DNA of 64,000 bases from Pontiella desulfatans (GTDB taxonomy: Bacteria; Verrucomicrobiota; Kiritimatiellia; Kiritimatiellales; Pontiellaceae). The DNA lies in assembly GCF_900890425.1 (NCBI RefSeq), contig NZ_CAAHFG010000001.1, forward strand, positions 1,116,001 to 1,180,000, given 5' to 3'. Position 1 is the stretch's first letter, and each line of letters begins with the position of its first letter. Position numbers and translations under genes: made by a program. Shown here one piece after another: positions 2,125-46,830 of the stretch. The notes beneath the pieces were generated by a model, which did no database searches, was not told the DNA's origin, and saw only the letters and a program-made list of their open reading frames with translations.

Positions 2125-2174
2125 TAACGAAAAGGGGCAGGGCATGTCTTGTAGAAATTAAGCACGCTGGTGTA
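2125..2174 (-). promoter_or_regulatory. Recurrent TACAC/TACAAGAC promoter-like element (copy 1)
   Basis: On the minus strand, TACACCA at 2174 is followed 21 nt later by TACAAGAC, ending at 2146. TCGTTA (2130-2125) lies 15 nt further on. The last base is 64 nt before the ATG at 2060. The geometry matches the other copies in this window. That these are -35 and -10 boxes is inference. Confidence 0.6.
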
Positions 2175-2187
2175 CGCGGATCATGAA

Positions 2188-2218
2188 CAAAAAAAGCCCC
2201 GGCGGGTGGGCCGGGGCT
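2188..2218 (-). terminator. Rho-independent terminator of the 354-aa PEP-CTERM gene
   Basis: On the minus strand a 9-bp perfect stem (AGCCCCGGC with GCCGGGGCT, 6-nt loop) is followed by a run of T residues. It lies 20 nt after the stop codon of the gene ending at 2239. Confidence 0.85.
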
Positions 2219-2238
2219 GCGAAAGAGTGCTAAACGAA

Positions 2239-3303
2239 CTAGATCATGAAACGGCGGCGGATGAAGAGCATGCCCAGGCCGCTGAAGAGGGCCAGACCGA
2301 CGCTGGCCGGTTCCGGGATCAGGTAGCCTTGGCTGTCGAGGGCGATGCCTTCCGATGAGCCGTTGATCGTGATACCGGCCAGTTGGGTTTCCGACAATCC
2401 ATTGCCATCGATGCCGAACTGAATCGAATCGCCTGCGGTGTAGTTGATGATATCCAGCGTGGTTCCCCAGGCGACGGCTGAGCTGTCATCGAAGGAGAGA
2501 ACACTTGATCCCAGTCCACCTAAATCAAAGGTCACGGTACCGTTGACTTCGAGGGTGTTGAAGTCGCCGCCGAAACCGCCGGTTACCAGTGTGGTTCCGT
2601 CGTTGAAGGCCATGGCTGAAGCACTGTTGACGGCCTGTGCCGCACCCAATTGTAACGTTCCGCCTTCGACGGTCACGGTGCCGTCAATGGCCATCGCTGC
2701 ACCGTAAATCAAGGTGCCGGCGCCTGTCTTTCTGACATCCCGGGTGCCACCAGCCATAGCGGTTCTGATATCAATAACTCCGGCCCCTGTGACTTCCATG
2801 TTCATATCCTGATCCAGTAATACTGAACCGCTCTCGATGATAAGATCACCGGCGCCGGTGGCTGACCATGTCACTTCAGACACAGTGCCTCCGCCGTTGT
2901 CGGCGTGAACGGCGTTGTCCTGCCAGAATTCTCCACCGATATTAAGCCAATAATCGTAAGCGCTGTCTTGTTGGAGGCCGACGCTACTAACCGAGCGAAC
3001 ACGCAGGCTGTTGGCGGCACTGCCGGTCATTTTGACGTTTTTCGGCAGGTTGCTCGCTACCTTGATCTTCTCAACAAGGAAGTTGGCATTCATGTTCGGT
3101 GCACCGCTACCAGTAGAGCTTGAATTGAATTGCATAATGTCGCCCGACCCCGGTTTGACACCCACCCAGTTCCCGTCACGGGACATAAGTCTATTGTTGA
3201 CGCTATCGGTACCCTTCCAGGACCTGGTGGTACCGTAAACGGCCGATTGTACGGCCAGAATCGCCACCAGGGCCAATCCCATCATTCCCATTGTTTTTTT
3301 CAT
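2239..3303 (-). CDS. PEP-CTERM-anchored autotransporter-repeat protein
   Basis: The protein is 354 aa. A signal peptide (MKKTMGMMGLALVAILAVQS) starts it and autotransporter-type beta-strand repeats (residues ~180-320) form the middle. The C-terminus is a textbook PEP-CTERM tail: IPEPAS, a hydrophobic segment, then RRR. PEP-CTERM proteins are processed by exosortase and sent to the cell surface or exopolysaccharide matrix. No catalytic domain is visible. The N-terminal half is clearly paralogous to the 713-aa protein starting at 4448, sharing for example the NWVGV and PNMN stretches. The ribosome-binding site AGGAG precedes the ATG at 3303. A copy of the recurrent promoter element lies 98 nt upstream of the ATG and a strong terminator follows the stop codon, so it is probably monocistronic. 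Confidence 0.9.
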   Translation of the reverse strand: MKKTMGMMGLALVAILAVQSAVYGTTRSWKGTDSVNNRLMSRDGNWVGVKPGSGDIMQFNSSSTGSGAPNMNANFLVEKIKVASNLPKNVKMTGSAANSLRVRSVSSVGLQQDSAYDYWLNIGGEFWQDNAVHADNGGGTVSEVTWSATGAGDLIIESGSVLLDQDMNMEVTGAGVIDIRTAMAGGTRDVRKTGAGTLIYGAAMAIDGTVTVEGGTLQLGAAQAVNSASAMAFNDGTTLVTGGFGGDFNTLEVNGTVTFDLGGLGSSVLSFDDSSAVAWGTTLDIINYTAGDSIQFGIDGNGLSETQLAGITINGSSEGIALDSQGYLIPEPASVGLALFSGLGMLFIRRRFMI

Positions 3304-3401
3304 GTTCTTTTTCTCCTGTTCTCTCTTTTCCCGTTGCTCGTTGGATGACTCCAGCGGACGTAGTTCAATACACAGTTATCTGCTTTATTGAGGGTATAAG
3401 C

Positions 3402-3450
3402 TAACAGGTGGGGGAGGGAGCGTCTTGTAGTATAAAAGCATGCTGGTGTA
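3402..3450 (-). promoter_or_regulatory. Recurrent TACAC/TACAAGAC promoter-like element (copy 2)
   Basis: On the minus strand this copy has TACACCA, GCATGCTTTTATAC, then TACAAGAC ending at 3422, and CTGTTA at 3407-3402 after 14 nt. It points to the PEP-CTERM gene whose ATG is at 3303, leaving a 98-nt leader. Confidence 0.65.
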
Positions 3451-3752: not shown

Positions 3753-4052
3753 TTATTTCTTCTCGGCTACTTCTTCTTTTTCAGCGCCCTTTTTCTTTTT
3801 GCCTTTGGGTTTCCCTTTTTCGTCGCCGGTCAACTTGCCGTCTTTGTTTTTGTCGCGCTTGTCGAAGTGGGCTTCGGCCGCGGCTTGGTCGAATTTCTTG
3901 CCGGCTTTCTCGGCTTCAGCCTTGCGCCAGGCCACATACGATTCCTTGGTGGTGACCTTCGGCTTGCCTTTGCCTTCGTCCTTTTTCTTTTCTCCAGCCT
4001 GTACGGTGATGCCGATGCATGCGATCAGTGCCAAGATGAATAATTTCTTCAT
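3753..4052 (-). CDS. Small secreted lysine-rich EF-hand protein
   Basis: The protein is 99 aa. The start at 4052 is chosen because MKKLFILALIACIGITVQA is a clear signal peptide preceded by AAAGGA; longer upstream extensions have no signal sequence. The mature part is very rich in Lys and Glu and contains one canonical calcium-binding EF-hand loop, DKNKDGKLTGDE (about residues 69-80), preceded by AEAHFDKR. After the stop codon the same frame continues with 14 more Lys-rich codons to a second stop near 3709. The TAA appears to be a one-base change of an AAA Lys codon that removed a C-terminal segment. It probably binds calcium outside the cytoplasm; its partner is unknown. A divergent promoter pair upstream links it to the repeat protein at 4448. 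Confidence 0.8.
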   Translation of the reverse strand: MKKLFILALIACIGITVQAGEKKKDEGKGKPKVTTKESYVAWRKAEAEKAGKKFDQAAAEAHFDKRDKNKDGKLTGDEKGKPKGKKKKGAEKEEVAEKK

Positions 4053-4193
4053 TTCTTTTTTCCTTTGGTTGTCGGGGTTTTTCCCGCTGGTTTCTTCAAA
4101 AAAGCCTTCACTCGGTGCAGGGCAACTTTTCGCCCCCGCCCGCAGACTCCGCAAACCAGATGGTTTGGTCTACTTGTAGGCAATGTTGTTTTG

Positions 4194-4243
4194 TAGCAAT
4201 GTGCAACCCGGCTTGTCTTGTAGAAAAAAAGCGTGTCGGTGTA
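4194..4243 (-). promoter_or_regulatory. Recurrent TACAC/TACAAGAC promoter-like element (copy 3)
   Basis: On the minus strand this copy has TACACCG, ACACGCTTTTTTTC, then TACAAGAC ending at 4215, followed 15 nt later by TTGCTA (4199-4194). It reads towards the EF-hand gene (ATG at 4052). Confidence 0.65.
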
Positions 4244-4295
4244 CATTCTCATCGGCAAACGAACGGGAAGGGGATGGTTGCAATTAGCATTTATC

Positions 4296-4345
4296 TACAC
4301 CAGCATGCTTTTTTTCTACAAGACGCCAAATTCCCTTCTTTGCTA
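4296..4345 (+). promoter_or_regulatory. Recurrent TACAC/TACAAGAC promoter-like element (copy 4)
   Basis: TACACCA at 4296 is followed by GCATGCTTTTTTTC and TACAAGAC (ending 4324). TTGCTA lies at 4340-4345, 15 nt downstream. The gene starts at 4448. This is one of the cleanest copies. Confidence 0.7.
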
Positions 4346-4447
4346 GATTAACTCAAGCTCAAGCTCTCCAAAGCAGAGACATTGCTGGGATGGGTGTTTG
4401 TTCGTAGTTTCGTAGCAAAACCGAAATTGAACCGGAGGATTAGGAAG

Positions 4448-6589
4448 ATGAAAAAAACAATGCGAATGATAGGGCTGGGCATGCTGGCATGCGTATGTGC
4501 GCAAACGGTGGCATACGGACTCGATCGGCAATGGACGGGCACAGATACGACGAATAACAAACTGATGACCCGGAATCAGAACTGGGTCGGTGTGCGACCG
4601 ATCGCAGGAGATTATATTTCATTCACCTCAGCATCGATTGGATGGAACAAACCGAATATGAACGATGATTTTCTGACGGAGCTTCTCCGGGCCAGAACGT
4701 CGTTGGCTCAGGATATCACCATGGAAGGCGGTGCTTCTAATAATCTGCGCCTTCGCTCGACAAGTGGGCTTGCGATTGAAAACAACAGTGGACAGCTGTT
4801 ATGGATCGATTTTAGCGGGAGTTTGCGGCAGGACAACGATATTTTCAGCACTTCAGTCAATGCTTCCGAGGTAACGTGGCGGACTGCTGGTTCGAATAGT
4901 GTGCTTAAGGTAACTCCCGGCAGCATCACGCTGGAGTGCGATCTTTTGCTGGACGTTGACGGAATCTCATCCATGGAGATCGGGAGCTCTATAAGTGGTT
5001 ACGCTACTGCCAAAGGTTGGGATATCACAAAAATAGGAACCGGCACCCTGACCCTCAGCGGATCGAGTATTTTGACCGGCTATACGACTATTTCCCAAGG
5101 AACGCTTCAGTTGGGGGCAAACCAACCCATTGGCGGAAATTCGGATCTGGTTTTTGCCGATGGCACCACCCTGAAAACAGGTGGCTACGACGGCGATTTC
5201 GATAAAGTGGACGTCAGCGGAACCGTGATAGTCGATTTTGAAAACGTGGGAACCAGCCAGATTTCGTTTAAAGACAGCTCAGCCGTTGCCTGGGGCACTC
5301 CAGCCCTGAACATCACCAACTTTACGGATGGAGTCGATTCTGTTCGCTTCGGTACCGATGCCAACGGTTTGACACCCACCCAGCTGGCGGGCATCACGGT
5401 AAACGGTGTTTCGGGCTATGCCCTCGATAGCGATGGCTATCTTGCGTTGCCTGTCCCGGCAGACGAACAGGAGTGGGTCGGCGGAACGAATACCGATTGG
5501 CACATCGCAGCAAACTGGGCAAGCAACAGCGTGCCGGGTGCGGCCGGCGTCGCCATCTTCGATGCCGCTTTTGCTTCGAGCAATTCTCAGCCCACGGTTA
5601 CATCGAACGCGGTTGTCGATGAGCTGCGGGTGCTCGCTCCCGAACAGGATGTGGAAATCACGGTGGCTTCCAGCGCCACGCTTGGCGTTGCCCAGGCATC
5701 CATTAACATGGCAAACGCTGCAAGCAACCTGACGATCTTCGGCGAAGGCGCATTCGTGCAGTTGCCCGGCACCGAGTCCGATCCGCTTTGGGACGTCGCC
5801 AGCACCAATGGCGGCGATTTGGCCATCGATACGGATTCGTTCGTAATCTCGAACGGCGTGGCCCTGACGATCAATGTGGATGCATTGCGCACGGTGGATA
5901 TCCAGACTAGTGCCGACGTTTCCACGGCCAGCGTCACCAAGACGGGCGAAGGCCTCCTGATCCTCGGCGGTTCCAATGGATGGAGCGGCGACACGACGAT
6001 CAGCGGGGGAACGCTTCAGCTGACAGCGGATAATGCCCTCAGTTCAGATTCGGCGGTTGTTTTCAGCGATGGAACCACACTTGAAGCCGAAGGGGTATCC
6101 GGTTCCTTCTCGACGCTCGAAATCAACGGAAGCGTGACCTTCGATCTGGATGGAGCCGGAACCAATGCCCTTGCGTTCGCCGACAGTTCCGGCGTTGCAT
6201 GGGGCTCGACCCTGGTTATCACCAACTATACCGATGGCGTGGATTCGATCCGCTTCGGCACCAACAGCACGGCACTAACCGAAGCCCAGCTGGCGGACAT
6301 CACCCTCAACGGGGAAGGAAACCTGGTTCTGGATGAAAGCGGCTATCTGGTGGTTGGGCCGGTGCCGGTCGGGGATGTTGCGTTGGGAACCGTTTCCGGC
6401 GTTGGCGTATCCCTTGCGTGGGGCAGCGTGGTTGGCCAGGGTTATGAGGTGCAGTACAAGACCAATCTACTGGATGCGGTTTGGATGTCATACACCAACC
6501 TCGCGGGAACCGGCGGGGAGCTGTCGGTCACCTCCTCCGTCGTGAATGCCGCGGAGTTCTACCGGATTGAATCGGCATTTTCCGAGTAG
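4448..6589 (+). CDS. Secreted autotransporter-repeat protein, 713 aa
   Basis: The start at 4448 gives a signal peptide (MKKTMRMIGLGMLACVCAQT) after GGAGG and AGGAAG. The body contains three rounds of autotransporter-associated beta-strand repeats, each with a KTGEGLLILGGSNGWSG-like unit and an ADSSGVAWG-like unit. Within the chain, EWVGGTNTDWHIAANW (about residue 340) opens a second passenger-like block of the kind that starts other proteins here. The C-terminal ~70 residues form a small beta-sandwich-like domain ending in FYRIESAFSE. There is no PEP-CTERM tail and no beta-barrel autotransporter translocator, so the export route beyond Sec is unknown. The N-terminal third is paralogous to the gene at 2239-3303. 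No catalytic motif is seen. Confidence 0.88.
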   Translation: MKKTMRMIGLGMLACVCAQTVAYGLDRQWTGTDTTNNKLMTRNQNWVGVRPIAGDYISFTSASIGWNKPNMNDDFLTELLRARTSLAQDITMEGGASNNLRLRSTSGLAIENNSGQLLWIDFSGSLRQDNDIFSTSVNASEVTWRTAGSNSVLKVTPGSITLECDLLLDVDGISSMEIGSSISGYATAKGWDITKIGTGTLTLSGSSILTGYTTISQGTLQLGANQPIGGNSDLVFADGTTLKTGGYDGDFDKVDVSGTVIVDFENVGTSQISFKDSSAVAWGTPALNITNFTDGVDSVRFGTDANGLTPTQLAGITVNGVSGYALDSDGYLALPVPADEQEWVGGTNTDWHIAANWASNSVPGAAGVAIFDAAFASSNSQPTVTSNAVVDELRVLAPEQDVEITVASSATLGVAQASINMANAASNLTIFGEGAFVQLPGTESDPLWDVASTNGGDLAIDTDSFVISNGVALTINVDALRTVDIQTSADVSTASVTKTGEGLLILGGSNGWSGDTTISGGTLQLTADNALSSDSAVVFSDGTTLEAEGVSGSFSTLEINGSVTFDLDGAGTNALAFADSSGVAWGSTLVITNYTDGVDSIRFGTNSTALTEAQLADITLNGEGNLVLDESGYLVVGPVPVGDVALGTVSGVGVSLAWGSVVGQGYEVQYKTNLLDAVWMSYTNLAGTGGELSVTSSVVNAAEFYRIESAFSE

Positions 6590-6610: not shown

Positions 6611-6650
6611 ATAAAAGCACGCGGTGATCTACACCAGCGTGCTTTTTTTT
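6611..6650 (+). terminator. Hairpin terminator overlapping the next promoter element
   Basis: AAAAGCACGC pairs with GCGTGCTTTT, and GGTG with CACC inside it, followed by eight T residues. The hairpin follows the stop at 6589 and its 3' arm is the upstream half of promoter copy 5. Termination and initiation signals therefore share the same bases. Confidence 0.7.
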
Positions 6651-6679
6651 TACAAGACAGGCTCTTACCGAGGCTGATA
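6630..6679 (+). promoter_or_regulatory. Recurrent TACAC/TACAAGAC promoter-like element (copy 5)
   Basis: TACACCA at 6630 is followed by GCGTGCTTTTTTTT and TACAAGAC (6651-6658). CTGATA lies at 6674-6679. The downstream gene starts at 6774. Confidence 0.65.
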
Positions 6680-6773
6680 CTTTATTAATCATCTGGAAGC
6701 AGGAGTGTTCCCATATGCGGGTTTTCGGCGTACAGGGGCGGTGAAAAACAAAAGCGAGTCTGGAGAAACAACG

Positions 6774-8045
6774 ATGAAGAAAGCAATAGGATGGATTTTA
6801 GCGGGACTGGTGGTATTCACATTTGCGGGAACGGCCCTGGCGGCCAATGAAAACTGGAATGGTACCGCGGGAACGACCTGGCATACCAACGCCAACTGGT
6901 CGGGCGATAACAACCGGGTTCCTCGCAACAATGACATCGCTGATTTTGCCACGAATTACAAAGTGGGAAGATCGGCTCCGACGGTTGCCGCCGGCACCAA
7001 TGCCGTGTTTGGTGAGTTGCGCGTTTCAGCCGATGCGCTGCAGGATATTGTGATCACACTCGAAGGTGATATGACGATCAGCGAAAGCAGCTCCAGCGGC
7101 AATATATCCATGCGCTTCCAAGGGGACAAAAACATGAACCTCTCCGGTCCCGGAACTTTTCGGCAGAATTTCACAACCAATGCCTCGGGTGACGTCATTA
7201 CCCGAAAGCGGTGGGTCGGTAACCTAGCCGGTTCCGCCGCCGACCTGACCATTGATACCGGTGCTTTTGAAATCGGCGACGGCACCAAGCTGGAAGTGGA
7301 AATCCGTGAAGGCCAAACCTGGCATTTCAAGACCCCCTGTGAACCAACTACTGCTTGGGTCAAGAAAGAGGGCGACGGTACATTGACCCTCCATGAGCAA
7401 AATCAATGGACCGGACAGACCTGGGCTCAGGACGGCATTTTGCAGTTTGCGACAAACAATGCCATCAGCAGTTCGTCGTTGTTGATGATCACCCGCGATG
7501 CAGTCGTGAAAACGGGCGGATTCGACGGCGACTTCGGCCTCTTGGACATCGCGACGACCGGCGCGGCTGTGATCGATTTCGAGGGGCTGGGAACGAGCCA
7601 ACTCACATTTGCCGACTGTTCCGATACGAACGAGGTGATATGGAGCAGCTCTACCATCTTGAACCTGGCCAACTTTACAGAGGGCGCCGACTCCATTCGC
7701 TTCGGCACCGACCGTGCCGGGTTGACGGAGGCGCAGGTGACAAACATTACGGTAAATGGAATGTCGGGTTATGCGCTCAATTACGAGGGTTATCTGGTAA
7801 CCACCAACCCTGTCCCGCAGGCGATCGGAAAAGTGGGGGCTGTTGCGCCGGTCAATGTTGAGGGCATTGCGTTGACGTGGGAGTGTCAGGAATTTCAAAG
7901 CTATGATATCGAATGCCGGGATGATTTGATTACCGGGACATGGACGGTTTACACGAATGTGATCGGGATCGGTGGGACGAATATGATGACCGTCCCGGTG
8001 TCAGCGGATAAGGGCAATGAATATTATCGCGTGATCTCGGATTAG
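6774..8045 (+). CDS. Secreted autotransporter-repeat protein, 423 aa
   Basis: The ATG at 6774 follows GGAG and gives a good signal peptide ending in ALA-AN (residues 1-24). The mature protein opens with NENWNGTAGTTWHTNANWSG, the pattern that starts passenger-like blocks in its neighbours. Repeat units WVKKEGDGTLTLHEQNQWTG and DFEGLGTSQLTFADCS follow. The C-terminal ~75 residues resemble the end domain of the 713-aa protein and finish with YYRVISD. There is no PEP-CTERM tail and no enzyme motif. It has its own promoter element 94 nt upstream of the ATG. Confidence 0.85.
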   Translation: MKKAIGWILAGLVVFTFAGTALAANENWNGTAGTTWHTNANWSGDNNRVPRNNDIADFATNYKVGRSAPTVAAGTNAVFGELRVSADALQDIVITLEGDMTISESSSSGNISMRFQGDKNMNLSGPGTFRQNFTTNASGDVITRKRWVGNLAGSAADLTIDTGAFEIGDGTKLEVEIREGQTWHFKTPCEPTTAWVKKEGDGTLTLHEQNQWTGQTWAQDGILQFATNNAISSSSLLMITRDAVVKTGGFDGDFGLLDIATTGAAVIDFEGLGTSQLTFADCSDTNEVIWSSSTILNLANFTEGADSIRFGTDRAGLTEAQVTNITVNGMSGYALNYEGYLVTTNPVPQAIGKVGAVAPVNVEGIALTWECQEFQSYDIECRDDLITGTWTVYTNVIGIGGTNMMTVPVSADKGNEYYRVISD

Positions 8046-10990: not shown

Positions 10991-11737
10991 ATGAAAAAGC
11001 AAACGATTATTGCAGTGGCGCTCTTTGGAATGGCAGCCGGGCAGGTGCCGGCCGAACTGTTGGTTGGAACGACGACCAATACCACGATTACGGCACCTGT
11101 CGCAATCGGAGATTTCGGGCTTGGGGCGGATTATCCGATCCTTCAGGCACGCTCTTTCTCCACCGGGGCGGCGTGCAGTTTGACGGGACTGTTTTTCGGG
11201 GCAAACCTATACCACGAGAGCGGTTTGGGCGGAATCAGTTTTTCGATATACACCGACAGCACCAGTCAACCGGGTAGTCTTGTCGCTGGAGGACTCAACC
11301 TCTTTTCGGCGACGTCGGCAACCATTGGGAACGTGCTGGCCCCCGGGGCCTCGTTGGCGCTTGACGCCAATACCGCCTATTGGCTTGTGGCCTCGGTTGA
11401 CCAAACGTTGGGAAGCACGACCTATAAGTGGAACCAGACGGACTCCGCCGCGTTTGAATCCGATTTTGCCGGGACTGGAATGCCGTTGGCTTATGCCAAC
11501 GGCACCGATGGAACCTCCTGGGCCAATTACAGCGGTTCATCCATGGCCATGGAGATCCATGCGGTTCCGGAACCCGGAACCATTTCGCTGATGGGACTCG
11601 GATTTTTCGGGAGTCTTCTGGCTCGTCGGCGCCGCACCCGCAAGAGTCGCTCCCGCGAATTCGAACTGCCCGAATATACGCGTCCGTTTCTTGAGGAGGA
11701 AACGGAGCGGCCATTGGACCAGTCGGCGTTGTATTAG
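10991..11737 (+). CDS. PEP-CTERM protein with choice-of-anchor-R-like domain
   Basis: The protein is 248 aa. A signal peptide is followed by a beta-rich domain (TITAPVAIGDFGLGADYPIL, ISFSIYTDSTSQPGSL) that resembles the choice-of-anchor R family. It ends in a PEP-CTERM signal: VPEPGTISLMGLGFFGSLLA followed by RRRR. Unusually, about 37 further residues follow the Arg cluster (ending DQSALY), rich in Arg and Glu, whereas PEP-CTERM tails normally end within a few residues. The gene lies between two paralogous metalloprotease fusions in one apparent operon, so it may be a surface partner or substrate of those proteins. That last point is inference. Confidence 0.8.
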   Translation: MKKQTIIAVALFGMAAGQVPAELLVGTTTNTTITAPVAIGDFGLGADYPILQARSFSTGAACSLTGLFFGANLYHESGLGGISFSIYTDSTSQPGSLVAGGLNLFSATSATIGNVLAPGASLALDANTAYWLVASVDQTLGSTTYKWNQTDSAAFESDFAGTGMPLAYANGTDGTSWANYSGSSMAMEIHAVPEPGTISLMGLGFFGSLLARRRRTRKSRSREFELPEYTRPFLEEETERPLDQSALY

Positions 11738-15265: not shown

Positions 15266-17041
15266 TCATCTTGAATAATACACCAAGTTGGGGAGGTTCT
15301 TTTTGAGACGGGTTATGGCCTCCTGGCTAATCCTTGATTCCTCATCCTTTCGGAGCCGGATCTCAAGCTCCCTAAGCGATGAAATTCCCTCAAGATGCGC
15401 CAGACCTGCATCGGTGATGGTGTTCCCGCTGCGGATAGTCAATTTCTTCAAATGCTTCAATTGTGCAAGGCAGGCGAGGTCGTCGTCGCCAATGCCTGGA
15501 AGCTCAAGCTGTTCGAGCCGGGGCAGTCCCGAAAGATCCAGCACGGCGTCGTTGTTCGAAATCCCTCGGACGGTCAGTGCTCTCAAATGGGCAAGCCTAT
15601 TGAGTCCATTCAGTCCGGAAACGGTTACGTTGGGCGCATAGCCGAGTTCAAGCTGTTCCAGCTTCTGCAAGGGCGCGAGTTCGGCAAGCGCTTGGTTGGT
15701 TAACTGGCTCGGTGAAAGAAATCGAAGTGATTTCAGGTTGGTTAGCTTGGCAAGCTGGCGCATACCTTCATGGGTCAGTAAGGAGCCGTTTAGGTAAAGG
15801 GTTTCCAGATGGCCGATACTGGCTACAGACTGCATGCCTGAATCCGTAACGTGCCGGGCGTTGGGCATTTGCAGTTTCTTGAGTTTTTTCAGCCCGGAAA
15901 GGTGTTCGAGTCCTTTATCTGTAAAGTGCCCGGTATAGATCCTAACAGACTCAAGGGATTGAATCTTTCCGAGGTGGGCCAGCCCTTCGTCGGTGATGAC
16001 ATTCCTGCCTGAGAAAAGCTTGTGCAACAAGGAGATATCCTGAAGAGCGGGAAGTTCCTTCAACGGGGCAAGCCCATCGTCCGTGAAGCAGCCACTCAAC
16101 GACAGGGATTCGAGACCCGTAAAATTCACCAGTTGGGACGTTGGGATGAATTCCGGGTTTTTACTTTTTATCGCCAATGTCTTTAACGAAGGCATGTCGG
16201 GCAAGGCTGCGATGGCCTCGCCTCTGATATCGCTAAATTCCAACCGCTGGAGCGATGGGATATTGCCGAGGTAAACCAATCCTTCAGATCCGGTTTCGAA
16301 ACCGCTCAGATATAGATACTCAAGCGATGGCAGCTGTGAGAGATGAACCAGGCCGTTCCCTTCATAGCCTTTCCATCCAATCATTAACTCCTCCAATGCC
16401 GACAGCCGTGCAAGGTGGGAAAACCCCTTGCAGGTAATCACGGATTCCGAGGATAGGCGAAGGCCTTTCAGCGATGTTAATTCGCCAACGATGGCCATGC
16501 CGTCCTCGTCGATCGGGTCGATATGCAGTCGCTCCAATGATTCAAGTTTCTTCAGCGAAGCGAGTCCCTTATGGGTGGCTGCGCCGCTGCCGAGCACCAG
16601 CGTTTTGAGCTCCGTCAGGGTGCCGATGTCGTCGATGTACTCGTCTTTCGGGCTGCCATGGAACTCCAAGGCCTCGATGGCGTCGGGCGCAAGGTTGGCC
16701 AAGGTCGAGAGATCGATCCAACCTTCGGGTTCGACGGCAAAGCCCAATCTCATGTTTAGGGGAACGGCAACGTCTCCCTTGGCTTCGCCGACCTGCACCC
16801 ATTTCCCCGCAATCCCTCCCCACCACCAGTGCGAGGGCTCGCTGTTGGCTGGTTGATCCATATCCACCAGAACACCAAGGGAGGTGTTGTTTGGGAAATT
16901 CAGCGTCCGGCCTGAAGGCCGGCCTCGTTTATTTGTCCCGGAAGCTACGCATGAAACCATGCATAGGAATCCGATAGAGACCATAAGAGGCCACGTCCTC
17001 TTGCCTGCAAATCGGCTTTTCTTCCTCAATCCATCTGTCAT
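15266..17041 (-). CDS. Leucine-rich-repeat protein, probable lipoprotein
   Basis: The protein is 591 aa. A basic N-terminus is followed by a hydrophobic stretch ending LCMVSC, a plausible lipobox. Residues ~120-580 are built from roughly 18-19 leucine-rich repeats of about 24 residues, of the planctomycete/RNI-like kind (ITDEGLAHLGKIQSLESV, FTDKGLEHLSGLKKLKKL). Such repeats usually bind proteins; no catalytic domain is visible. The ATG overlaps the stop codon of the 2535-aa protein (ATGA at 17041-17038), so the two are translationally coupled and probably work together at the cell surface. Confidence 0.85.
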   Translation of the reverse strand: MTDGLRKKSRFAGKRTWPLMVSIGFLCMVSCVASGTNKRGRPSGRTLNFPNNTSLGVLVDMDQPANSEPSHWWWGGIAGKWVQVGEAKGDVAVPLNMRLGFAVEPEGWIDLSTLANLAPDAIEALEFHGSPKDEYIDDIGTLTELKTLVLGSGAATHKGLASLKKLESLERLHIDPIDEDGMAIVGELTSLKGLRLSSESVITCKGFSHLARLSALEELMIGWKGYEGNGLVHLSQLPSLEYLYLSGFETGSEGLVYLGNIPSLQRLEFSDIRGEAIAALPDMPSLKTLAIKSKNPEFIPTSQLVNFTGLESLSLSGCFTDDGLAPLKELPALQDISLLHKLFSGRNVITDEGLAHLGKIQSLESVRIYTGHFTDKGLEHLSGLKKLKKLQMPNARHVTDSGMQSVASIGHLETLYLNGSLLTHEGMRQLAKLTNLKSLRFLSPSQLTNQALAELAPLQKLEQLELGYAPNVTVSGLNGLNRLAHLRALTVRGISNNDAVLDLSGLPRLEQLELPGIGDDDLACLAQLKHLKKLTIRSGNTITDAGLAHLEGISSLRELEIRLRKDEESRISQEAITRLKKNLPNLVYYSR

Positions 17042-27639: not shown

Positions 27640-29024
27640 AAAAGCTATGGATGATGATTCTTTGCGCGGGCGTCGCGTTGGCCGCTTTAGCCGCGCCGCG
27701 CGCGCCCAACGTGGTGATGTTGCTCGCGGACGATCTGGGCTACGGCGATCTCGGCTGCTATGGTGGGCCCGTCAAAACCCCGGCGTTGGACGGCCTCGCG
27801 GCGGGGGGCGTTCGTTTTACCGATTTCTATTCCGGTTGCGCGGTCTGCTCGCCTTCGCGGGCGACGCTGCTGACGGGGCGGAACCATATCCGCGCGGGGG
27901 TTTATAATTGGATCAACGACGAGGTGCATCGCACGCACCTGCTGGAGCGCGAGATCACGCTCGCGGAAGTTCTCAAGAAGGAGGGGTATGAAACCGCGCA
28001 CGTCGGGAAATGGCACCTCGGCCTTCCGTACGGGACGTTCGATAAACCGACGCCCGCCGAGCATGGTTTCGACTACTGGTTCGCGACCGACAACAACGCT
28101 CTGCCCACGCATCACAACCCGACGAACTTCTATCGCAACGGCAAGGCGCTCGGAAAAATGGAGGGCTATTCCTGCCAGCTCGTCGTCGACGAGGCCATCC
28201 AATGGTTGGAAGAGCATCGCGATCCTGCCGCGCCGTTCTTCCTCAACGTCTGGTTCCACGAACCGCACATGAAGGTTGCCGCGCCCGCGGGAATCGTTGA
28301 GGAATACAGCCGGTTCAAGCCCGCGAAAAAGAACGCGCGTCTGGATCTGGCGACCTATTCCGCGACGATCGACAACACCGACCGGGCGATCGCCCGGTTG
28401 CTCGCCAAGTTGCGGGAGGTCGCGCCTCCGGAACAGACCCTGATTATTTATGGCTCGGACAACGGGTGCTACATGCCCGAGCGAACCGGCGGACTGCGTA
28501 GCAAGAAGGGGCAAAACTGGGAGGGCGGAATCCGCGTGCCCGGCATCTTCTGCTGGCCGGGAATCATTCAGGCGGGCGCCGTCGAATCCGCGCCCGCGGG
28601 TTTGACGGACGTGCTGCCCACGGTGTGTGGATTGTTGGGGCTTGAAAAACCGGACGTCCATCTCGACGGCTCCGATCTGACGGGGTTGCTGACGGGCAAG
28701 CCGAAAGAGTTCAATCGCCACCAACCATTGTTCTGGCATCTTCAGAAAGCCCGTCCGATCGTCGCGATCCGCGACGGCGACTATTCTCTACTCGCCGAAC
28801 CCGACTATGAGCTGTCGCGAAACAACACCTTGCAGGAGGCGTGGATCCCGGCCATCAAAACGGGGGGCTACACCAACTATCAGCTCTTCAACCTGAAAGA
28901 CGATCCGGCGCAGGAAAACGATCTGTCGACCGCTCAGCCTGAACGGCTGGAGCGGATGAAAAAGAAACTACTCGAAATCAACGCCAGCGTCATGGCCGAC
29001 GGTCCCGACTGGCATTTGGAGTGA
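27636..29024 (+). CDS. Secreted sulfatase (arylsulfatase type)
   Basis: The protein is 462 aa. The ATG at 27636 overlaps the upstream stop (ATGA), implying coupled translation. The signal peptide ends at LAALAA. The metal site is LLADDLGYGD and the formylglycine motif C-S-P-S-R is at residues 71-75, followed by ATLLTGR. VGKWHLG and a later SDNG motif complete the active site. It is a full-length S1 sulfatase; substrate unknown. It ends the two-sulfatase unit downstream of the chimeric gene. Confidence 0.92.
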   Translation: MKKLWMMILCAGVALAALAAPRAPNVVMLLADDLGYGDLGCYGGPVKTPALDGLAAGGVRFTDFYSGCAVCSPSRATLLTGRNHIRAGVYNWINDEVHRTHLLEREITLAEVLKKEGYETAHVGKWHLGLPYGTFDKPTPAEHGFDYWFATDNNALPTHHNPTNFYRNGKALGKMEGYSCQLVVDEAIQWLEEHRDPAAPFFLNVWFHEPHMKVAAPAGIVEEYSRFKPAKKNARLDLATYSATIDNTDRAIARLLAKLREVAPPEQTLIIYGSDNGCYMPERTGGLRSKKGQNWEGGIRVPGIFCWPGIIQAGAVESAPAGLTDVLPTVCGLLGLEKPDVHLDGSDLTGLLTGKPKEFNRHQPLFWHLQKARPIVAIRDGDYSLLAEPDYELSRNNTLQEAWIPAIKTGGYTNYQLFNLKDDPAQENDLSTAQPERLERMKKKLLEINASVMADGPDWHLE

Positions 29025-29087
29025 GCGAAGACCCTATAACCATTTGTTCCACGCGGTTTCCTCCGAGGGCGCGGCATGTTGGTTTTG

Positions 29088-29136
29088 TACGTACGTTGGC
29101 GGGTTATGTACAAGCAGCCGCGCACGAAATGCGCTA
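29088..29136 (+). promoter_or_regulatory. Divergent copy of the promoter-like element (copy 8, weak)
   Basis: TACG at 29088 lies exactly 21 nt before TACAAGCA (29109-29116), and GCGCTA starts 15 nt later (29131-29136). The T-rich centre is missing. It sits 51 nt before the sulfatase start at 29188. Spacing matches the family; sequence only in part. Confidence 0.4.
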
Positions 29137-32563: not shown

Positions 32564-34504
32564 ATCGGGTAAGAGGGAGTGACTAGCTCCCTCTCCCCAC
32601 ACCACCAAGCATGCGGGTCCGCACTTGGCGGTTCGCAAGGCACCGTCCGTTTCCGTTCCGCCCTGTGCTAGCGGCGAACCGAGTCCGGGTAGTGCATCCG
32701 AGACCATTGTTCCTTCAGACTGACCAGTCCTTGCTCCTTGAGCCACGCGTTGCCCAAGCCCATGTTCGTTGCCAGCGTGCGCGATAGTTTCCAATAGCCT
32801 TTGCGGCTACTGACCACCATGTTGATCTGCCGCTCGTCAATGCCGAGCTTGCGCAGTTGTCGCCGACGCATTTTCGGGCGTTTCCACATCTTCCAATAGC
32901 ACAGCCGTAATCTCCGGCGTATCCATTGGTCGAGCGGTGGAATGGGTTTGTAGTATTCGCTGATGCCAAAGTAGCCCATCCAGCCGCGCATGTATTCGCG
33001 CAGCTTCCTCAAACGGTATTGCATGGAGACGCCCCAGCTTCTACCGGTGAGTTCCTTGATGCGCCGTTTGAATTCCTTTTCGGACTTTTGGCTCCAGCGG
33101 ATCTTTCCGCGTATGATGTGAAACCCGAGGAAGGTGCATTCGTCGAGGCGTGCGACCTTGCTCTTGGTCTCATTGACCTCCAGCAAAAGTTCGCGCTCCA
33201 GAAATTTCCGAATACTGGAAAACACCCGTTCGCCCGCCTGCTTGGTCTTCACCATGATGATGAAGTCGTCGGCATAGCGCACGAACTTGAGTCCCCTTCT
33301 TTCGAGTTCCTTATCCAGCTCATCGAGCAGGATATTGGCGAGCAACGGCGAGAGCGGGCCGCCCTGCGGGACTCCTCTGCCCGGGTGTATGGACAGCCCA
33401 TCCGCGATTATCTCCGCCTTTAGATATTTCCTGATCAGTTTCAGCACTCGTTCGTCCTTCACCCGCTTCGCCACACACCGCATCAGCGGGTCGTGGTTCA
33501 CGGTGTCGAAGAACTTAGAGAGGTCGGCATCGACCGCGATCGGATAATATGAGCGGAACAGCTTCTTTACCTGCCGCACCGCGTCGTGCGCGGAGCGTCC
33601 GGGTCTAAAGCCATAACTCGATTCCGAAAAGTGCGGATCGAACAGCGGCGTTAAAACCTGTGCGATGGCCTGCTGGATCACACGATCCAGCACGGTCGGA
33701 ATCCCTAGCGGACGTTTACTCCCGTCCGGTTTCGGTATCTCGACGCGGCGCACCGCCGCAGGCTTGTACCTGCCGCTGGCCAACGATGAACGGATACCCT
33801 CCCAGTGCTGGCGGATAAACCCGAACGCGGCATCGATGGACAACCCGTCCACGCCCGCCGCGCCCTTGTTTGCCTTAACCCGCTTCCATGCCTTGCGCAT
33901 GTTCTCCAAGTCGAGCACCCGTTCCAATAGTTCATCATGCGGGGTCGCTTGGTCCGCCGCGCAGGGTGCAACTTCTCCGCCATACGGCTTCATCGAAGGC
34001 TCCTTTCGCGACGGGGGCGTCCACGCTCCTTGCGTTCAGCCCTTCCCGTCAGGTCAACGGTACTATGGCCTCTGCTGACTCCTTCGGGAGTAACGACGAC
34101 ATTGCTGCCGCCGCCGCTTTCCGTTGCCGGAACGCATATCCCGCAGGCCTCCCCGGATAAGAACACAGACTTCCGCTGCACAACCGCCGCATTTACCGTA
34201 GAGGTATTGCCCCGGACTTCGGCATGCTGGGCAACCTCATCCACCTCCTCAGCCTTATATGCGATTTCTGTTCGTCGGCTCACAGTTTTGATCTCCATCT
34301 TCCTCCCCACGATCCCTCGCGAGACCGCAGTTGATTTCATCTAGCGCTTCGGCTACCGTCGTTCCCAATGAAAGGAACAGCGGACAGCCGGGCAACGCGC
34401 AGGGGACTCGAACCCCATTAGTTTGTGTTCATGCCAGGCGTACCCAGCCCATGCACGGCACGGCGTACCGCCGCCCGTGATGGCGATGTTCTACGGAGTA
34501 ACAC
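32564..34504 (-). mobile_element. Group II intron with its own reverse transcriptase
   Basis: On the minus strand the 3' part is recognisable. A domain V-like hairpin (about 32638-32598, GAACCGCC ... GGTGGTGTGG) is followed by a domain VI-like stem (GAGGGAG / CTCCCTC) and the end ...TTACCCGAT near 32564. The reverse transcriptase lies in domain IV. The 5' end is not certain; GTGTTAC at 34504 is the best candidate near the next gene, making the intron about 1.9 kb. It is inserted antisense to the surrounding sulfatase genes, between the sulfatase stub and an intact sulfatase. Confidence 0.7.
32668..33993 (-). CDS. ltrA: Group II intron-encoded reverse transcriptase/maturase
   Basis: The protein is 441 aa. 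Reverse transcriptase motifs appear in order: KRPLGIPTVLDRVIQQA, SSYGFRPGRSAHDAV, AVDADLSKFFDTVNHD, GVPQGGPLSPLLANI, and the catalytic YADD at residues 240-243. The maturase (X) domain fills the C-terminal part. There is no HNH endonuclease domain; the protein ends soon after the maturase domain. Intron retrohoming would therefore rely on an endonuclease-independent route, as known for En-minus lineages. No frameshift or stop is seen, so it may be active. Its role is splicing and mobility of its own intron. Confidence 0.95.
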   Translation of the reverse strand: MKPYGGEVAPCAADQATPHDELLERVLDLENMRKAWKRVKANKGAAGVDGLSIDAAFGFIRQHWEGIRSSLASGRYKPAAVRRVEIPKPDGSKRPLGIPTVLDRVIQQAIAQVLTPLFDPHFSESSYGFRPGRSAHDAVRQVKKLFRSYYPIAVDADLSKFFDTVNHDPLMRCVAKRVKDERVLKLIRKYLKAEIIADGLSIHPGRGVPQGGPLSPLLANILLDELDKELERRGLKFVRYADDFIIMVKTKQAGERVFSSIRKFLERELLLEVNETKSKVARLDECTFLGFHIIRGKIRWSQKSEKEFKRRIKELTGRSWGVSMQYRLRKLREYMRGWMGYFGISEYYKPIPPLDQWIRRRLRLCYWKMWKRPKMRRRQLRKLGIDERQINMVVSSRKGYWKLSRTLATNMGLGNAWLKEQGLVSLKEQWSRMHYPDSVRR

Positions 34505-39553: not shown

Positions 39554-39602
39554 TACACCGGTGCGATCTATTTATACAAGACGGGGCATCTCCCGCCTGC
39601 TA
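39554..39602 (+). promoter_or_regulatory. Recurrent TACAC/TACAAGAC promoter-like element (copy 9)
   Basis: TACACCG at 39554 is followed by GTGCGATCTATTTA and TACAAGAC (39575-39582). CTGCTA lies at 39597-39602, 44 nt before the ATG at 39646. The central ATGCTTTT is less well kept here. Confidence 0.6.
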
Positions 39603-39645
39603 CCTTTGGCTAATAGGGTAGGCTGGAAAAATCTGGGGATCGTTT

Positions 39646-41124
39646 ATGAAGAATACCACTCGCATGGGCTTAGGCGCTCTAGTTGTTGCATTCTGTGGAG
39701 TATTATTCGCGTCGGGAGCGTCCGCGGAAAAGCCCAACGTGCTGTTTATCATCTCCGACGACCTTACGGCGTCGGCACTTTCGTGTTATGAAAACAAGGT
39801 TTGCCAAACTCCGAACATCGATCGGATTGCGGAGCGCGGGGTGCGCTTCGACAACATGCACTGCATGAATCCGGTGTGTGGACCTTCCCGCGTGTCGATC
39901 ATGACGGGGCGCTATCCCGGAGAGCTGGACTGCTATAGCAACAAAGACTCGAAAAGCGTGTTCGATGACCCCTCACTGGGCAGTATGACCGAACCGTTCC
40001 GGCAGCAAGGCTGGTTTGCCGCACGGGTCAGCAAGGTCTACCATATGGGTATTCCCGGCGACATCACGAGAGGCACCGCCGGGGCGGATCATGCCGCGTC
40101 GTGGGACGTGGCGGTCAATATCAAGGATCTGGAACAAAAGCAGCCGGGGAAATACGAGCTGCTCTCCCCGAGGATGAAGAGCTCCGGCATGGGCTTCAAG
40201 GTGGTCGAGACCGAAGCGGGCGCATTGGAGCTCGCGGATGGCAAGGCGGTAACCCAAGCCATCGATTTGATCAGAGAGCACAAAGATCAGCCCTTTTTCC
40301 TCGCGGTGGGCCTTGTGCGTCCGCATGTCCCGCTTGTAGCGCCACCGGAATTTTTCGAACCCTATCCACTGGAAAGCATCGAGCTTCTGAAGGTGCCGGA
40401 CAACGATCTCGACGATATTCCCGAAGCGCATCACTTTGATGTCAACGAAGTCAAATACGGCATGTCCGAAGAGCAGCAACGCAAGGCCATTCGCGGCTAC
40501 TACGCCTCCGTTTCCTACATGGATGCCCAGGTCGGCCGCCTGTTGGACGAGCTGGATAAACTGGGCTTGGACGACAACACCATCGTCGTTTTCACCTCCG
40601 ACCACGGTTACCTCCTTGGCGAACACCACATGTGGGAAAAACAGACGTTGTTCGAAAACACCACCCGTGTTCCGTTCATCGTTTCCGTTCCTTGGCTCGC
40701 GGACGCCCAGGGTCAAGGCTGCGACCGTATCGCCGAGCACATCGATCTGTTTCCGACCCTGACCGATCTCTGCGGGATTGAAACCCCTGCCGACCTGCCG
40801 GGACAATCCTTGAAGACCCTCCTGAAAGATCCCCGGCAGGAGGGCTGGACTAAAAACGCGGCCTACACGCTGAATAGTTGGGGCGGTGAATCCCTGCGCG
40901 GTGAAGACTTCCGTCTCACGGTCTGGCACGACGGTAAAAGCGGCATCGAGCTCTACGATCTCAAAAAGGATCCCGGTGAATTCACCAACCACGCGCTCAA
41001 TCCCGAATATGCCACCCAACTCGAAACCATGCGCGGCTTGCTTGATGAACGTCGCCGCGCGGCGAAAACCGATGTCAACGCCTACCTGAAAAAGGCCCGC
41101 CCCGCCTTCGCGAAAGAGAAATAA
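39646..41124 (+). CDS. Secreted sulfatase, iduronate-2-sulfatase-like
   Basis: The protein is 492 aa. The signal peptide ends ASGASA. The metal-binding segment is KPNVLFIISDDLTASALSCY and the formylglycine motif C-G-P-S-R is at residues 78-82. FLAVGLVRPHVPLVAPPEFF and FTSDHGYLLGEHHMWEKQ are typical of the iduronate-2-sulfatase-like group. It is a close paralog of the sulfatase at 46896 over its whole length (shared VNIKDLEQ and QPGKYE stretches) and more distantly of the one at 26179. Both close paralogs sit directly behind a copy of the same promoter element, which suggests that gene and promoter were duplicated together. Confidence 0.92.
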   Translation: MKNTTRMGLGALVVAFCGVLFASGASAEKPNVLFIISDDLTASALSCYENKVCQTPNIDRIAERGVRFDNMHCMNPVCGPSRVSIMTGRYPGELDCYSNKDSKSVFDDPSLGSMTEPFRQQGWFAARVSKVYHMGIPGDITRGTAGADHAASWDVAVNIKDLEQKQPGKYELLSPRMKSSGMGFKVVETEAGALELADGKAVTQAIDLIREHKDQPFFLAVGLVRPHVPLVAPPEFFEPYPLESIELLKVPDNDLDDIPEAHHFDVNEVKYGMSEEQQRKAIRGYYASVSYMDAQVGRLLDELDKLGLDDNTIVVFTSDHGYLLGEHHMWEKQTLFENTTRVPFIVSVPWLADAQGQGCDRIAEHIDLFPTLTDLCGIETPADLPGQSLKTLLKDPRQEGWTKNAAYTLNSWGGESLRGEDFRLTVWHDGKSGIELYDLKKDPGEFTNHALNPEYATQLETMRGLLDERRRAAKTDVNAYLKKARPAFAKEK

Positions 41125-44459: not shown

Positions 44460-45995
44460 TTATTTTCCTTCTTCGGGGGGAGGCGTTTTGTATTGAGTCT
44501 GCAATGCCGCGAGTTTTTTCTTCATGCGTTCCACGGTCATGCTGTATTCGGGATTATTGTATTCGCTGTTCATTTCGTTCGGATCGTTCTGGAGGTCGAA
44601 AAGTTCCCAGTCGTCCGTGTCGTAGAGGTGGATCAGTTTATAGCGGTCGTCGCGCACCCCATAGTGTCGGGCCACGCCGTGACCGCCGCCGTCGTAGTAC
44701 TGGTAGTAGATGGCGTCGCGCCATTGTGGAGAGGACTCCTGAAACAAGGGAAGCAGGCTTTCTCCCTGGATCTCTTCAGGAATTTTCTGGCCTGCCGCTT
44801 CGATGAATGTGGGAGCAATGTCAATGTTCTGGGTCAGCTGACGGATCCGGGTTCCGGGGTTGATTACGCCCGGCCAGCGCATCGCCAGCGGCTGGCGGAG
44901 CGACTCCTCGTACATCCATCGCTTATCGAACCAGCCGTGCTCACCGAGATAGAAACCCTGATCGGAGCTGTAGACCACGATGGTGTTTTCTTCGAGTCCG
45001 TTTTTTTTCAGGTAGTCGAGCAGCCGCCCAATGTTGTCGTCCACCGCGGCGACGCATCGGAGGTAGTCTTTGATGTAGCGTTGGTATTTCCAGCGAACCA
45101 ACGCCTTGCCGCTCAGGTTGGATTCAATAAACTTTTTGTTCTTCGGATCATACGCGGCATCCCAGGCCGTGCGTTCTTCAGGCGTCATGCGTTTCATGAA
45201 CAGAGTCATCGCCTTATTATACCGGCCAGGCTGCTCCGCCACTTTGAGGTCGTAGAACATGCTCATGTGTTCATCAATGCCCATTTTATGTTCGGAAGCG
45301 GAGCGGGTTCGACCGGTATAGTCGTCGAACAGGGTATCCGGCTCGGGGAACGTTACATCGTCGAACTTATTCAGGTAGGCTGGTGCCGGCATCCAGTTAC
45401 GATGCGGGGCTTTGTATTGGCACATCACCATAAACGGTTTGTCCGAATCCTTGTTCTTCTTGAGGTAGTCCATGGCCAAATCCGTGACGATTTCAGTGGA
45501 ATAGCCGGTGGTTTCCTGGGTGCCGTTGGCGGTCAGGAAATCGGGGGCATAGTAGGTTCCCTGTCCTTCCAAAACGTTCCATTGGTTGAAGCCGGTCGGG
45601 TCCGATTTTAGGTGCCACTTGCCGAAAATGGCGGTGGAGTATCCCGCCTGCTGCAGGAGCTTGGGGAAGGTTTGCTGCGTGCCGTCGAAGGTATCCCTAT
45701 TGCCGCGCTGGCCGTTGATGTGGCTGTGCTTTCCGGTCAGCACACAGGCGCGGCTGGGTGCACAGATGCTGTTGGCGCAAAAATTGTTTTCAAATAGCGC
45801 TCCGCCTTCGGCAATCCGGTCTATGTTCGGGGTGGGGGCGAGCTGGGTGATCTCGTTGAGGCCATAGGCGCTGATCGACTTGACTGCATGGTCGTCTGAA
45901 AAAATGAAAAGAATATTTGGTTTTTCCGCGGCCATGGCCGCGGTCGCGAATGCCATCACCAAAATGATGGCGATTCCGTTAGATTTCTTGCTCAT
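44460..45995 (-). CDS. Secreted sulfatase
   Basis: The protein is 511 aa. The start at 45995 is preferred (AAGGG upstream, signal peptide MSKKSNGIAIILVMAFATAA); an ATG at 46028 would overlap the upstream gene. KPNILFIFSDDHAVKSISAY is the metal segment and the formylglycine motif C-A-P-S-R is at residues 78-82, followed by ACVLTGKHSHINGQ. SSDQGFYLGEHGWFDKRW and the C-terminal DLQNDPNEMNSEYNNPEY are typical of S1 sulfatases acting on sulfated glycans. It is the middle gene of a three-gene operon. Confidence 0.9.
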   Translation of the reverse strand: MSKKSNGIAIILVMAFATAAMAAEKPNILFIFSDDHAVKSISAYGLNEITQLAPTPNIDRIAEGGALFENNFCANSICAPSRACVLTGKHSHINGQRGNRDTFDGTQQTFPKLLQQAGYSTAIFGKWHLKSDPTGFNQWNVLEGQGTYYAPDFLTANGTQETTGYSTEIVTDLAMDYLKKNKDSDKPFMVMCQYKAPHRNWMPAPAYLNKFDDVTFPEPDTLFDDYTGRTRSASEHKMGIDEHMSMFYDLKVAEQPGRYNKAMTLFMKRMTPEERTAWDAAYDPKNKKFIESNLSGKALVRWKYQRYIKDYLRCVAAVDDNIGRLLDYLKKNGLEENTIVVYSSDQGFYLGEHGWFDKRWMYEESLRQPLAMRWPGVINPGTRIRQLTQNIDIAPTFIEAAGQKIPEEIQGESLLPLFQESSPQWRDAIYYQYYDGGGHGVARHYGVRDDRYKLIHLYDTDDWELFDLQNDPNEMNSEYNNPEYSMTVERMKKKLAALQTQYKTPPPEEGK

Positions 45996-46005
45996 GTCTT
46001 TTCCC

Positions 46006-46716
46006 TTACAATGTTTTGATACGAACATTGCGGAACCAGACCGGCTGACCGTGGTACTGGAGCCCGACGTGGCCCTCGCGGGGCATATCCGTGTAGGCGG
46101 TTTTAAATTTATTCGTACTGCCGTCCGGATTTTTCCCGACCTCCGTCCACAGGTTCAGGTCCATGGAGTTAATCAGTTTCCCGTTCAGCACCACATGGAT
46201 CCAGTTATCATTGGCAATGACGGTATAGTGGTTCCATTCGCCAACGGGGTTGAGTTTGGGTTTAGCGTCGGCGGCTTTGCAGTCATAGATGGAACCGATG
46301 GAATTACGCGGCGTTTTTCCATCCTCCTGCATAATCTGCACTTCCATGGTGGTTTGGAGCCAGTTTGCAATATCACCACAGCGGATAAATATTCCGCTAT
46401 TTGTGTCCTTTGCATTTTTAAATTCGAGATCGATGATAAAATTCGAGTAGCGTTTTGTGCTCCAGATATCGCGCGGGTGCCGGGGTTTTTTCTTCCCCGT
46501 TTTCGGAGGTAGTGGTTTGGTGACCCGTTCCGGTGTCGGCTGGAGAATGTCGCCTTTGAACTGCCACATCTTTTCGGTCAGTTGCGCGTTGGACAGATCC
46601 TTCGCGAACAAGGGAGCGTAGCCTTTGTCGTTTGCTGCCTGCTCCATCAACTCCCCGATATCCGCCACCGAAGCAGTTGCAACGGCCATTATTCCCAGAA
46701 TCCACACTGTTTTCAT
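46006..46716 (-). CDS. DUF1080 (3-keto-disaccharide hydrolase-like) secreted protein
   Basis: The protein is 236 aa. A signal peptide is followed by a LamG/jelly-roll domain of the DUF1080 type: IWSTKRYSNFIIDLEFKN, SGIFIRCGDIANWLQTTMEV, GEWNHYTVIANDNWIHVVLN, and GHVGLQYHGQPVWFRNVRIK. The family includes proteins linked to hydrolysis of 3-keto-disaccharides, working with oxidoreductases of the Gfo/Idh/MocA kind; two proteins of that fold lie in the divergent array. It is the first gene of the minus-strand operon with two sulfatases, 10 nt upstream of the next start. Confidence 0.85.
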   Translation of the reverse strand: MKTVWILGIMAVATASVADIGELMEQAANDKGYAPLFAKDLSNAQLTEKMWQFKGDILQPTPERVTKPLPPKTGKKKPRHPRDIWSTKRYSNFIIDLEFKNAKDTNSGIFIRCGDIANWLQTTMEVQIMQEDGKTPRNSIGSIYDCKAADAKPKLNPVGEWNHYTVIANDNWIHVVLNGKLINSMDLNLWTEVGKNPDGSTNKFKTAYTDMPREGHVGLQYHGQPVWFRNVRIKTL

Positions 46717-46780
46717 ATTCCACCTTCGTTATTTGGTTGATGTTCTTGGAATGGCTAAGCCATGGTTGAACGTAATATAT

Positions 46781-46830
46781 TACACTACCATGCTTGGTCT
46801 GTACAAGACGCTGTGTGCATGATTGCTGTA
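46781..46830 (+). promoter_or_regulatory. Recurrent TACAC/TACAAGAC promoter-like element (copy 10)
   Basis: TACACTA at 46781 is followed by CCATGCTTGGTCTG and TACAAGAC (46802-46809), then TTGCTGTA around 46823-46830. The sulfatase ATG is at 46896. It would drive the ten-gene plus-strand array. Confidence 0.6.

Follow-up and report, generated by a model that had tools for sequence, protein, structure and literature searches.

A tandem promoter element as the probable operator of a PAS–AraC regulator in a sulfated-glycan island of Pontiella desulfatans

The window analyzed here is a stretch of 64,000 nucleotides (nt) from Pontiella desulfatans (positions 1116001-1180000 of contig NZ_CAAHFG010000001.1, hereafter C1), whose genome was searched as 8,658,305 bases in 6 contigs. 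It carries a repeated promoter element, TACACY-N15-TACAAGAC with a -10 box downstream, which is very probably the landing site of an AraC-family sensor that switches on about fifteen genes for the breakdown of sulfated sugars. An earlier note on this DNA had listed ten copies. Nine of them were found as exact matches at those coordinates by pattern search in the window, but the tenth, a weak copy at 29088-29136, was not supported: its strand has no match at up to 3 mismatches, it is missing from the 23 profile matches of the genome, and an overlapping match with 3 mismatches (29082-29110) lies on the opposite strand. The nine operators, each with its -10, and the open reading frames (ORFs) behind them are as follows, in window coordinates.

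2121-2174, minus strand: operator (2146-2174) and -10 CGTTAGCTT (2121-2129)
1-2072, minus strand: target, 1548-aa exported protein extending left of the window (C1:1113426-1118072); ORF with a signal-like N-terminus, domains not scanned
3398-3450, minus strand: operator (3422-3450) and extended -10 TGTTAGCTT (3398-3406)
2239-3303, minus strand: target, 354-aa exported protein with a sub-threshold PATR repeat and, by eye, a PEP-like C-terminus
4190-4243, minus strand: operator (4215-4243) and -10 TGCTACAAA (4190-4198)
3753-4052, minus strand: target, 99-aa exported Lys/Asp-rich protein
4296-4349, plus strand: operator (4296-4324) and extended -10 TGCTAGATT (4341-4349)
4448-6589, plus strand: target, 713-aa PATR/beta-strand repeat protein
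6630-6683, plus strand: operator (6630-6658) and extended -10 TGATACTTT (6675-6683)
6774-8045, plus strand: target, 423-aa exported protein with a sub-threshold PATR repeat
up to 14716, plus strand: more ORFs behind 6774-8045, including a PEP-CTERM protein (10991-11737)
24719-24771, minus strand: operator (24743-24771) and extended -10 TGGTACCCT (24719-24727)
17038-24645, minus strand: target, 2535-aa exported multidomain protein (Laminin_G_3, DUF2341, PKD)
24993-25045, plus strand: operator (24993-25021) and extended -10 TGCTACCTT (25037-25045)
25130-26179, plus strand: target, 349-aa exported protein
26167-27639 and 27636-29024, plus strand: two sulfatase genes overlapping in series behind 25130-26179, with which they likely form one operon
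39554-39606, plus strand: operator (39554-39582) and extended -10 TGCTACCTT (39598-39606)
39646-41124, plus strand: target, sulfatase
46781-46832, plus strand: operator (46781-46809) and -10-like TGCTGTAGT (46824-46832), the poorest -10 of the nine
46896-48395, plus strand: target, sulfatase (a longer ORF starts at 46794)

The pattern matched the window 14 times at up to 3 mismatches, 9 of these without any, against 2.64 expected from shuffling (largest 7). In the form TACAYY-N15-TACAAGAC it occurs 14 times genome-wide, always between C1:1118146 and 1208256 (90 kb), and the reversed pattern 0 times; a loose genome scan at 3 mismatches carries no signal (521 matches vs 1152 for the reversed pattern). 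The fifteenth copy of the island, a TACACA form, stands at its right end (C1:1215013). A sequence-only profile, R1, was built from the 15 island copies and recovers them by construction; this and the other profile searches scored, in each genome, no more than the 150 best first-look candidates. Among them, R1 gave 23 matches in the own genome: the 15 island copies, seven further sites at E 1e-6 to 5e-3 (C1:72205, 73172, 331978, 546453, C2:1247527, 1259170 and C3:1131495) and one at E 0.04. Back-to-back pairs of sites face divergent genes at 4190-4349 and 24719-25045 of the window and at locus L017:18006-18145; in one such pair the two cores are 22 nt apart.

All 15 island sites have an ORF on the same strand with a plausible start 88-191 nt after the first base of the site, the starts being picked by eye and the ORF criterion loose. 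The proposal of the earlier note that this is a promoter element defining a regulon is supported. Besides one PATR repeat protein over the Pfam cut-off, two with sub-threshold PATR repeats and the 2535-aa multidomain protein, the island targets include sulfatases (39646 and 46896 in the window, 19-1605 in locus L018), an alpha-L-fucosidase, a glycoside hydrolase (GH) of family GH43, a Gfo/Idh/MocA oxidoreductase, a GNAT acetyltransferase and a two-domain 3-keto-disaccharide hydrolase; the remaining ones have no Pfam match or were not scanned. Other genes of the window encode further sulfatases, GH29 and GH95 enzymes, a Gfo/Idh/MocA protein and a PEP-CTERM protein, and this inventory points to sulfated fucan as the probable substrate. 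The seven sites elsewhere face a GH2 enzyme, a sulfatase, a carbohydrate esterase, a 3-keto-disaccharide hydrolase, a Gfo/Idh/MocA oxidoreductase, a 1011-aa protein without clear family and one unscanned gene.

Several descriptions of the targets in the earlier note need qualification. A simple hydrophobicity test bears out the claimed exported product for each of the nine window copies, but the rule is not general: neither the GNAT acetyltransferase behind C1:1186997 nor the Gfo/Idh/MocA oxidoreductase behind C1:73180 has a signal-like start. Two of three claimed sulfatases are indeed first genes at good window sites, while the third hung on the weak copy. The 2535-aa "metalloprotease" has one HEMGH motif, but Pfam found no protease domain in it at E 0.001; likewise, the 99-aa "EF-hand" protein looks EF-hand-like by eye but had no Pfam match at that threshold. 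A PEP-CTERM sorting signal was observed in 10991-11737 and a PEP-like C-terminus in 2239-3303, and some regulon products may be exosortase substrates. The minus strand at 32668-34340, inside the sulfatase island, holds a group II intron with a reverse transcriptase/maturase (RVT_1, GIIM; RF02001, RF01998).

The candidate regulator is encoded 34 kb past the window (C1:1214198-1215010, 270 aa), and the copy at C1:1215013 starts 2 nt after its stop codon. The protein combines a PAS_4 domain with an AraC-type helix-turn-helix (HTH) domain (HTH_18 3.1e-22, HTH_AraC 9e-21). As in the AraC/XylS family, the C-terminal domain is a double HTH with a fold match to AraC-type DNA-binding domains, and the putative operator is a tandem direct repeat with a period of about 21 bp at or above the -35 position. 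No named AraC equivalog (AraC, RhaS, MelR, the YSIRK regulator and others) was recognized, the best NCBIfam match reaching 63.7 bits against a cut-off of 200, and all NCBIfam families among the matches listed were under their own cut-offs. The AlphaFold model is confident over most of both domains (mean predicted local distance difference test 85.8), while a predicted template modelling score of 0.64 leaves their mutual placement unsure.

Within the genus, the homologues form two tiers of identity, 61-75% (type A) and 51-60% (type B), after which identity drops to 40% or less. Type-A genes have the site just past the stop codon, in their own orientation. When type B or a more distant homologue has one, it sits in reverse orientation immediately upstream of the start and faces a divergent gene. 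Three Opitutales proteins with 55-58% identity have the downstream arrangement and fall inside the type-A clade. In a survey of the class, in which up to 7 first-look candidates per genome were scored, such proteins occurred in at least 82 of 345 genomes at E <=1e-30. The best 80 of 134 confirmed loci were kept with their names, and among them are Verrucomicrobiota, Kiritimatiellota and Planctomycetota; three Planctomycetota entries, two of them named Gimesia, carry the divergent site. A homologue with 34% identity and no recognisable site was seen in a Marinagarivorans metagenome-assembled genome binned as Pseudomonadota (L187), which reflects either transfer or mis-binning. P. desulfatans itself has a second type-A gene at C1:72398. 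It has sites on both sides, each pointing outward (C1:72205-73235, locus L038), one facing the 1011-aa protein and the other the Gfo/Idh/MocA oxidoreductase.

Among 55 AraC-type HTH matches in the own genome, an R1 site within 1.5 kb was found only for the two type-A PAS–AraC genes, and a related divergent site accompanies the third PAS–AraC gene. The other AraC genes were considered as regulator and set aside: none of the remaining 53 HTH_18 matches has an R1 site that close, and the one nearest the left end of the island (C1:1085513) is separated from every R1 site by at least 32 kb. When relatives were searched with the DNA pattern alone, six of 16 exact places started 2-15 nt past the stop codon of PAS–AraC homologues with 61-74% identity. 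A site with up to 2 mismatches stood at a fixed place beside the gene for 61 of 92 distinct PAS–AraC proteins (12 of 16, 14 of 17, 11 of 16 and 24 of 43 by identity class), compared with 2 of 1511 and 1 of 1511 random windows. To enter this set, a BLAST match had to cover both PAS and HTH, with a query span of at least 200 that began no later than residue 60, and to come from a locus longer than 2.5 kb (L018, L038, L046 and L074 onward); each distinct sequence of the last 200 residues counted once, and other entries were dropped. The motif also co-occurs with the regulator: in 27 other genomes of the genus, the exact motif was present in 8 of 9 with subfamily A and in 1 of 18 without it (Fisher p 3.5e-5). 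Site placement follows the protein tree, with 4 changes for "downstream" vs 16.6 when shuffled and 17 vs 30.9 for "divergent"; 17 of the 18 "downstream" entries sit in one 20-entry clade (SH-aLRT 100) adjoining the type B clade. The tree was made by a quick method with SH-aLRT support only, and the "downstream" call allowed 3 mismatches. In the other genus members, the type-A profile matches 0 to 3 times per genome (E <=0.1), so that the fifteen-promoter island looks like an expansion within P. desulfatans. A profile partly trained on sites of relatives (R2) gave genus counts that are partly circular and were not used as a test.

The sites also show what kind of promoter is involved. The earlier note took a terminal (T/C)TG(C/T)TA-like hexamer as a possible -10, a framing that is shifted: the conserved block is TGnTAnnnT, with TAnnnT beginning 4 nt after the start of that hexamer, so that YTGnTA comprises the extended -10 and the opening TA of the true hexamer. 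Over 36 type-A sites TGnTAnnnT scored 161 of 180, against 94.9 after shuffling (maximum 111; offsets 14-19), when the best-scoring block was aligned at each site, and its G, T, A and last T are present in 34, 35, 34 and 33 sites. In 45 divergent sites, chosen by the 29-base core alone, TAnnnT lies 18-19 nt after TACAAGAC in 41 and 17-20 nt after it in 43, compared with an average of 5.1 and at most 13 after shuffling. TACAAG and TAnnnT are separated by 19-21 nt in the nine window copies, and by 20-21 nt in 31 of 36 type-A and 41 of 45 divergent sites. The divergent sites, 36 of which served to build a further model (R3), have ATGC at -12 to -9, TACA(C/A) at 0-4, a weaker (T)GC at 10-12 and TACAAGAC at 21-28. 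The conserved ATGC between the boxes, pointed out previously, is real and belongs to the element. By their sequence, TACAC and TACAAGAC mark two putative half-sites of a direct repeat with a 21-bp period. The predicted -10 is TAnnnT of housekeeping type, mostly TGnTAnnnT in the island; with TAnnnT at -12 to -7, TACAAGAC falls at about -39 to -31 and TACAC starts at about -60. TACAAGAC would thus overlap the -35, the placement seen with class II activators. The sites show no evident TTGACA-like -35, as expected where a promoter needs an activator.

We therefore consider it highly likely that the element is the operator of the PAS–AraC activator encoded at the right end of the island, acting in class II fashion at promoters that hold a -10 only. 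We infer that two monomers would bind the tandem half-sites, 21 bp apart on the same face of the helix, and that the one over the -35 would recruit RNA polymerase with the housekeeping sigma factor. A small molecule from the breakdown of sulfated polysaccharide is the presumed signal for the N-terminal PAS domain. The regulon would then comprise about fifteen promoters in the 97-kb island and a few elsewhere. A "dimeric activator" had been one option of the earlier note and agrees with this reading.

It is also possible, though unlikely, that the PAS–AraC protein mainly represses, blocking the -35 until a ligand frees the site. The overlap of the proximal half-site with the -35 would suit such a role, but no -35 consensus is evident that could serve a basal promoter, and a tandem site abutting the -35 is the usual placement for a class II activator. 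The alternative or extracytoplasmic function (ECF) sigma factor proposed earlier, with TACAAG as its -35, the TTGCTA-like hexamer as its -10 and TACAC as an extra upstream box, appears very improbable. The rigid spacing to a conserved downstream block and the wealth of sigma factors in this genome (30 region-2 matches) speak for it. However, the gap of 19-21 nt in the window is too long for TACAAG to be a -35, for which 16-18 bp would be needed; TACAC and TACAAG recur at 21 bp, the downstream block shrinks to the housekeeping-type TAnnnT in the 45 divergent sites, and the PAS–AraC linkage would be left unexplained. On the contig, the closest region-2 (PF04542) match is 272 kb away from the island, in a search that covered only sigma genes with region 2. 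The clustering and partial near-identity of the copies might suggest a dispersed repeat, mobile or structural, in place of operators. This is extremely improbable, since their flanks differ, the distance to the -10 is preserved, all 15 island copies precede a plausible gene start on their own strand, copies are retained beside the regulator in other genera, and Rfam found no known structured RNA at the window sites, its sole match type in the window being the group II intron.

Several observations weigh against assigning the element to the PAS–AraC activator of the island. For ten of the 16 exact places in relatives, flanks of about 1.5 kb contain no adjacent PAS–AraC gene; some of these places are likely due to chance. 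The 92 proteins are related and thus not independent trials, 31 of them have no site at up to 2 mismatches (19 in the class below 40% identity), and the type-A-clade genes L146 and L147 have none in the searched span. At the promoters, the island site at 1198087 has no good -10, the -10 boxes of 46781, 4243 and 1208228 are imperfect, and the upstream half-site shows its distal box (ATGC at -12) clearly in divergent sites and not in those of the island. Finally, the second type-A paralogue could share some of the sites, so that assignment to the regulator of the island rests on position. TACACC is found in 13 of 15 island sites vs TACACA in 5 of 7 sites elsewhere, four of the latter with AATCC before TACAAG; from this split, the two paralogues may have divided the targets.

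In relatives, the first gene behind a type-A site resembles a 3-keto-disaccharide hydrolase in 13 of 15 cases, as judged from its first residues, and Pfam confirmed three (L104, L111 and L151). Nine divergent partners were scanned, giving four Gfo/Idh/MocA proteins, three major facilitator superfamily transporters, one xylose-isomerase-like TIM barrel and one short-chain dehydrogenase/reductase. Since such families are common in this group, they only hint at a link to a 3-keto pathway. For P. desulfatans, the idea that the element controls 3-keto-disaccharide hydrolases in general was rejected: among 23 PF06439 matches, which represent 21 loci because two genes hold two each, a site faces only the two double-domain genes. 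These genes (C1:546596-547801 and 1215192-1216385) are the only double-domain ones in the genome and the only PF06439 genes with a site facing them. We propose tentatively, and with slightly less than even confidence, that PAS–AraC proteins across Verrucomicrobiota, Kiritimatiellota and Planctomycetota share one operator code and control oxidative (3-keto) glycan breakdown, the PAS domain sensing a keto-sugar or pathway intermediate, and that one member has become the master switch of a sulfated-fucan island here.

The element had been called undescribed, and literature searches gave no description of it. Searches for a PAS–AraC regulon returned nothing relevant among the matches listed, and one combining the operator letters with AraC returned only unrelated work among those listed. 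The term "AraC" occurs 0 times in the available portions of PMC6388578, PMC7356697 and PMC10880615, and "promoter" 0 times in those of the two papers describing Pontiella. Little seems to have been described of the regulators that govern the very large sulfatase and glycosidase sets of these bacteria. A regulator paired with a readable operator and a predicted, mapped -10 would make regulons predictable from genomes in three phyla; the pairing also lets the inducing sugar be sought and suggests a design for inducible promoters in this group.

This is a new regulon and a new regulator subfamily, of a known kind. The nearest solved architecture is the PAS–HTH receptor VqmA, which likewise joins an N-terminal PAS and a DNA-binding domain in a short protein. 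The model matches it in layout and matches AraC DNA-binding domains at the C-terminus; the TM-scores to VqmA, 0.38-0.40 for the query, indicate similar layout and not membership, and the DNA-binding domain of VqmA is of LuxR type, not AraC. The accessible text of PMC9007349 presents PF06439 (DUF1080) proteins, such as BT2157, as proposed or described 3-ketoglycoside hydrolases. That pathway resembles the present case in its PF06439 hydrolases, Gfo/Idh/MocA proteins and xylose-isomerase-like TIM barrels, which here lie beside the regulators; no regulator is named in that portion of the paper, and the regulon described here also has sulfatases, glycosidases and surface proteins. Direct repeats with a 21-bp period are reported, in a passage of PMC3870299, for three groups of AraC-family rhamnose regulators (Bacillales, Bacteroides and Enterococcus). 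As far as that passage goes, those systems share with ours the AraC DNA-binding domain, the 21-bp-period direct-repeat operator and a role in sugar catabolism, whereas the Pontiella system differs from them in its half-site (of ATGC-N8-TACA type in the divergent sites), its N-terminal PAS domain, its taxa and its targets.

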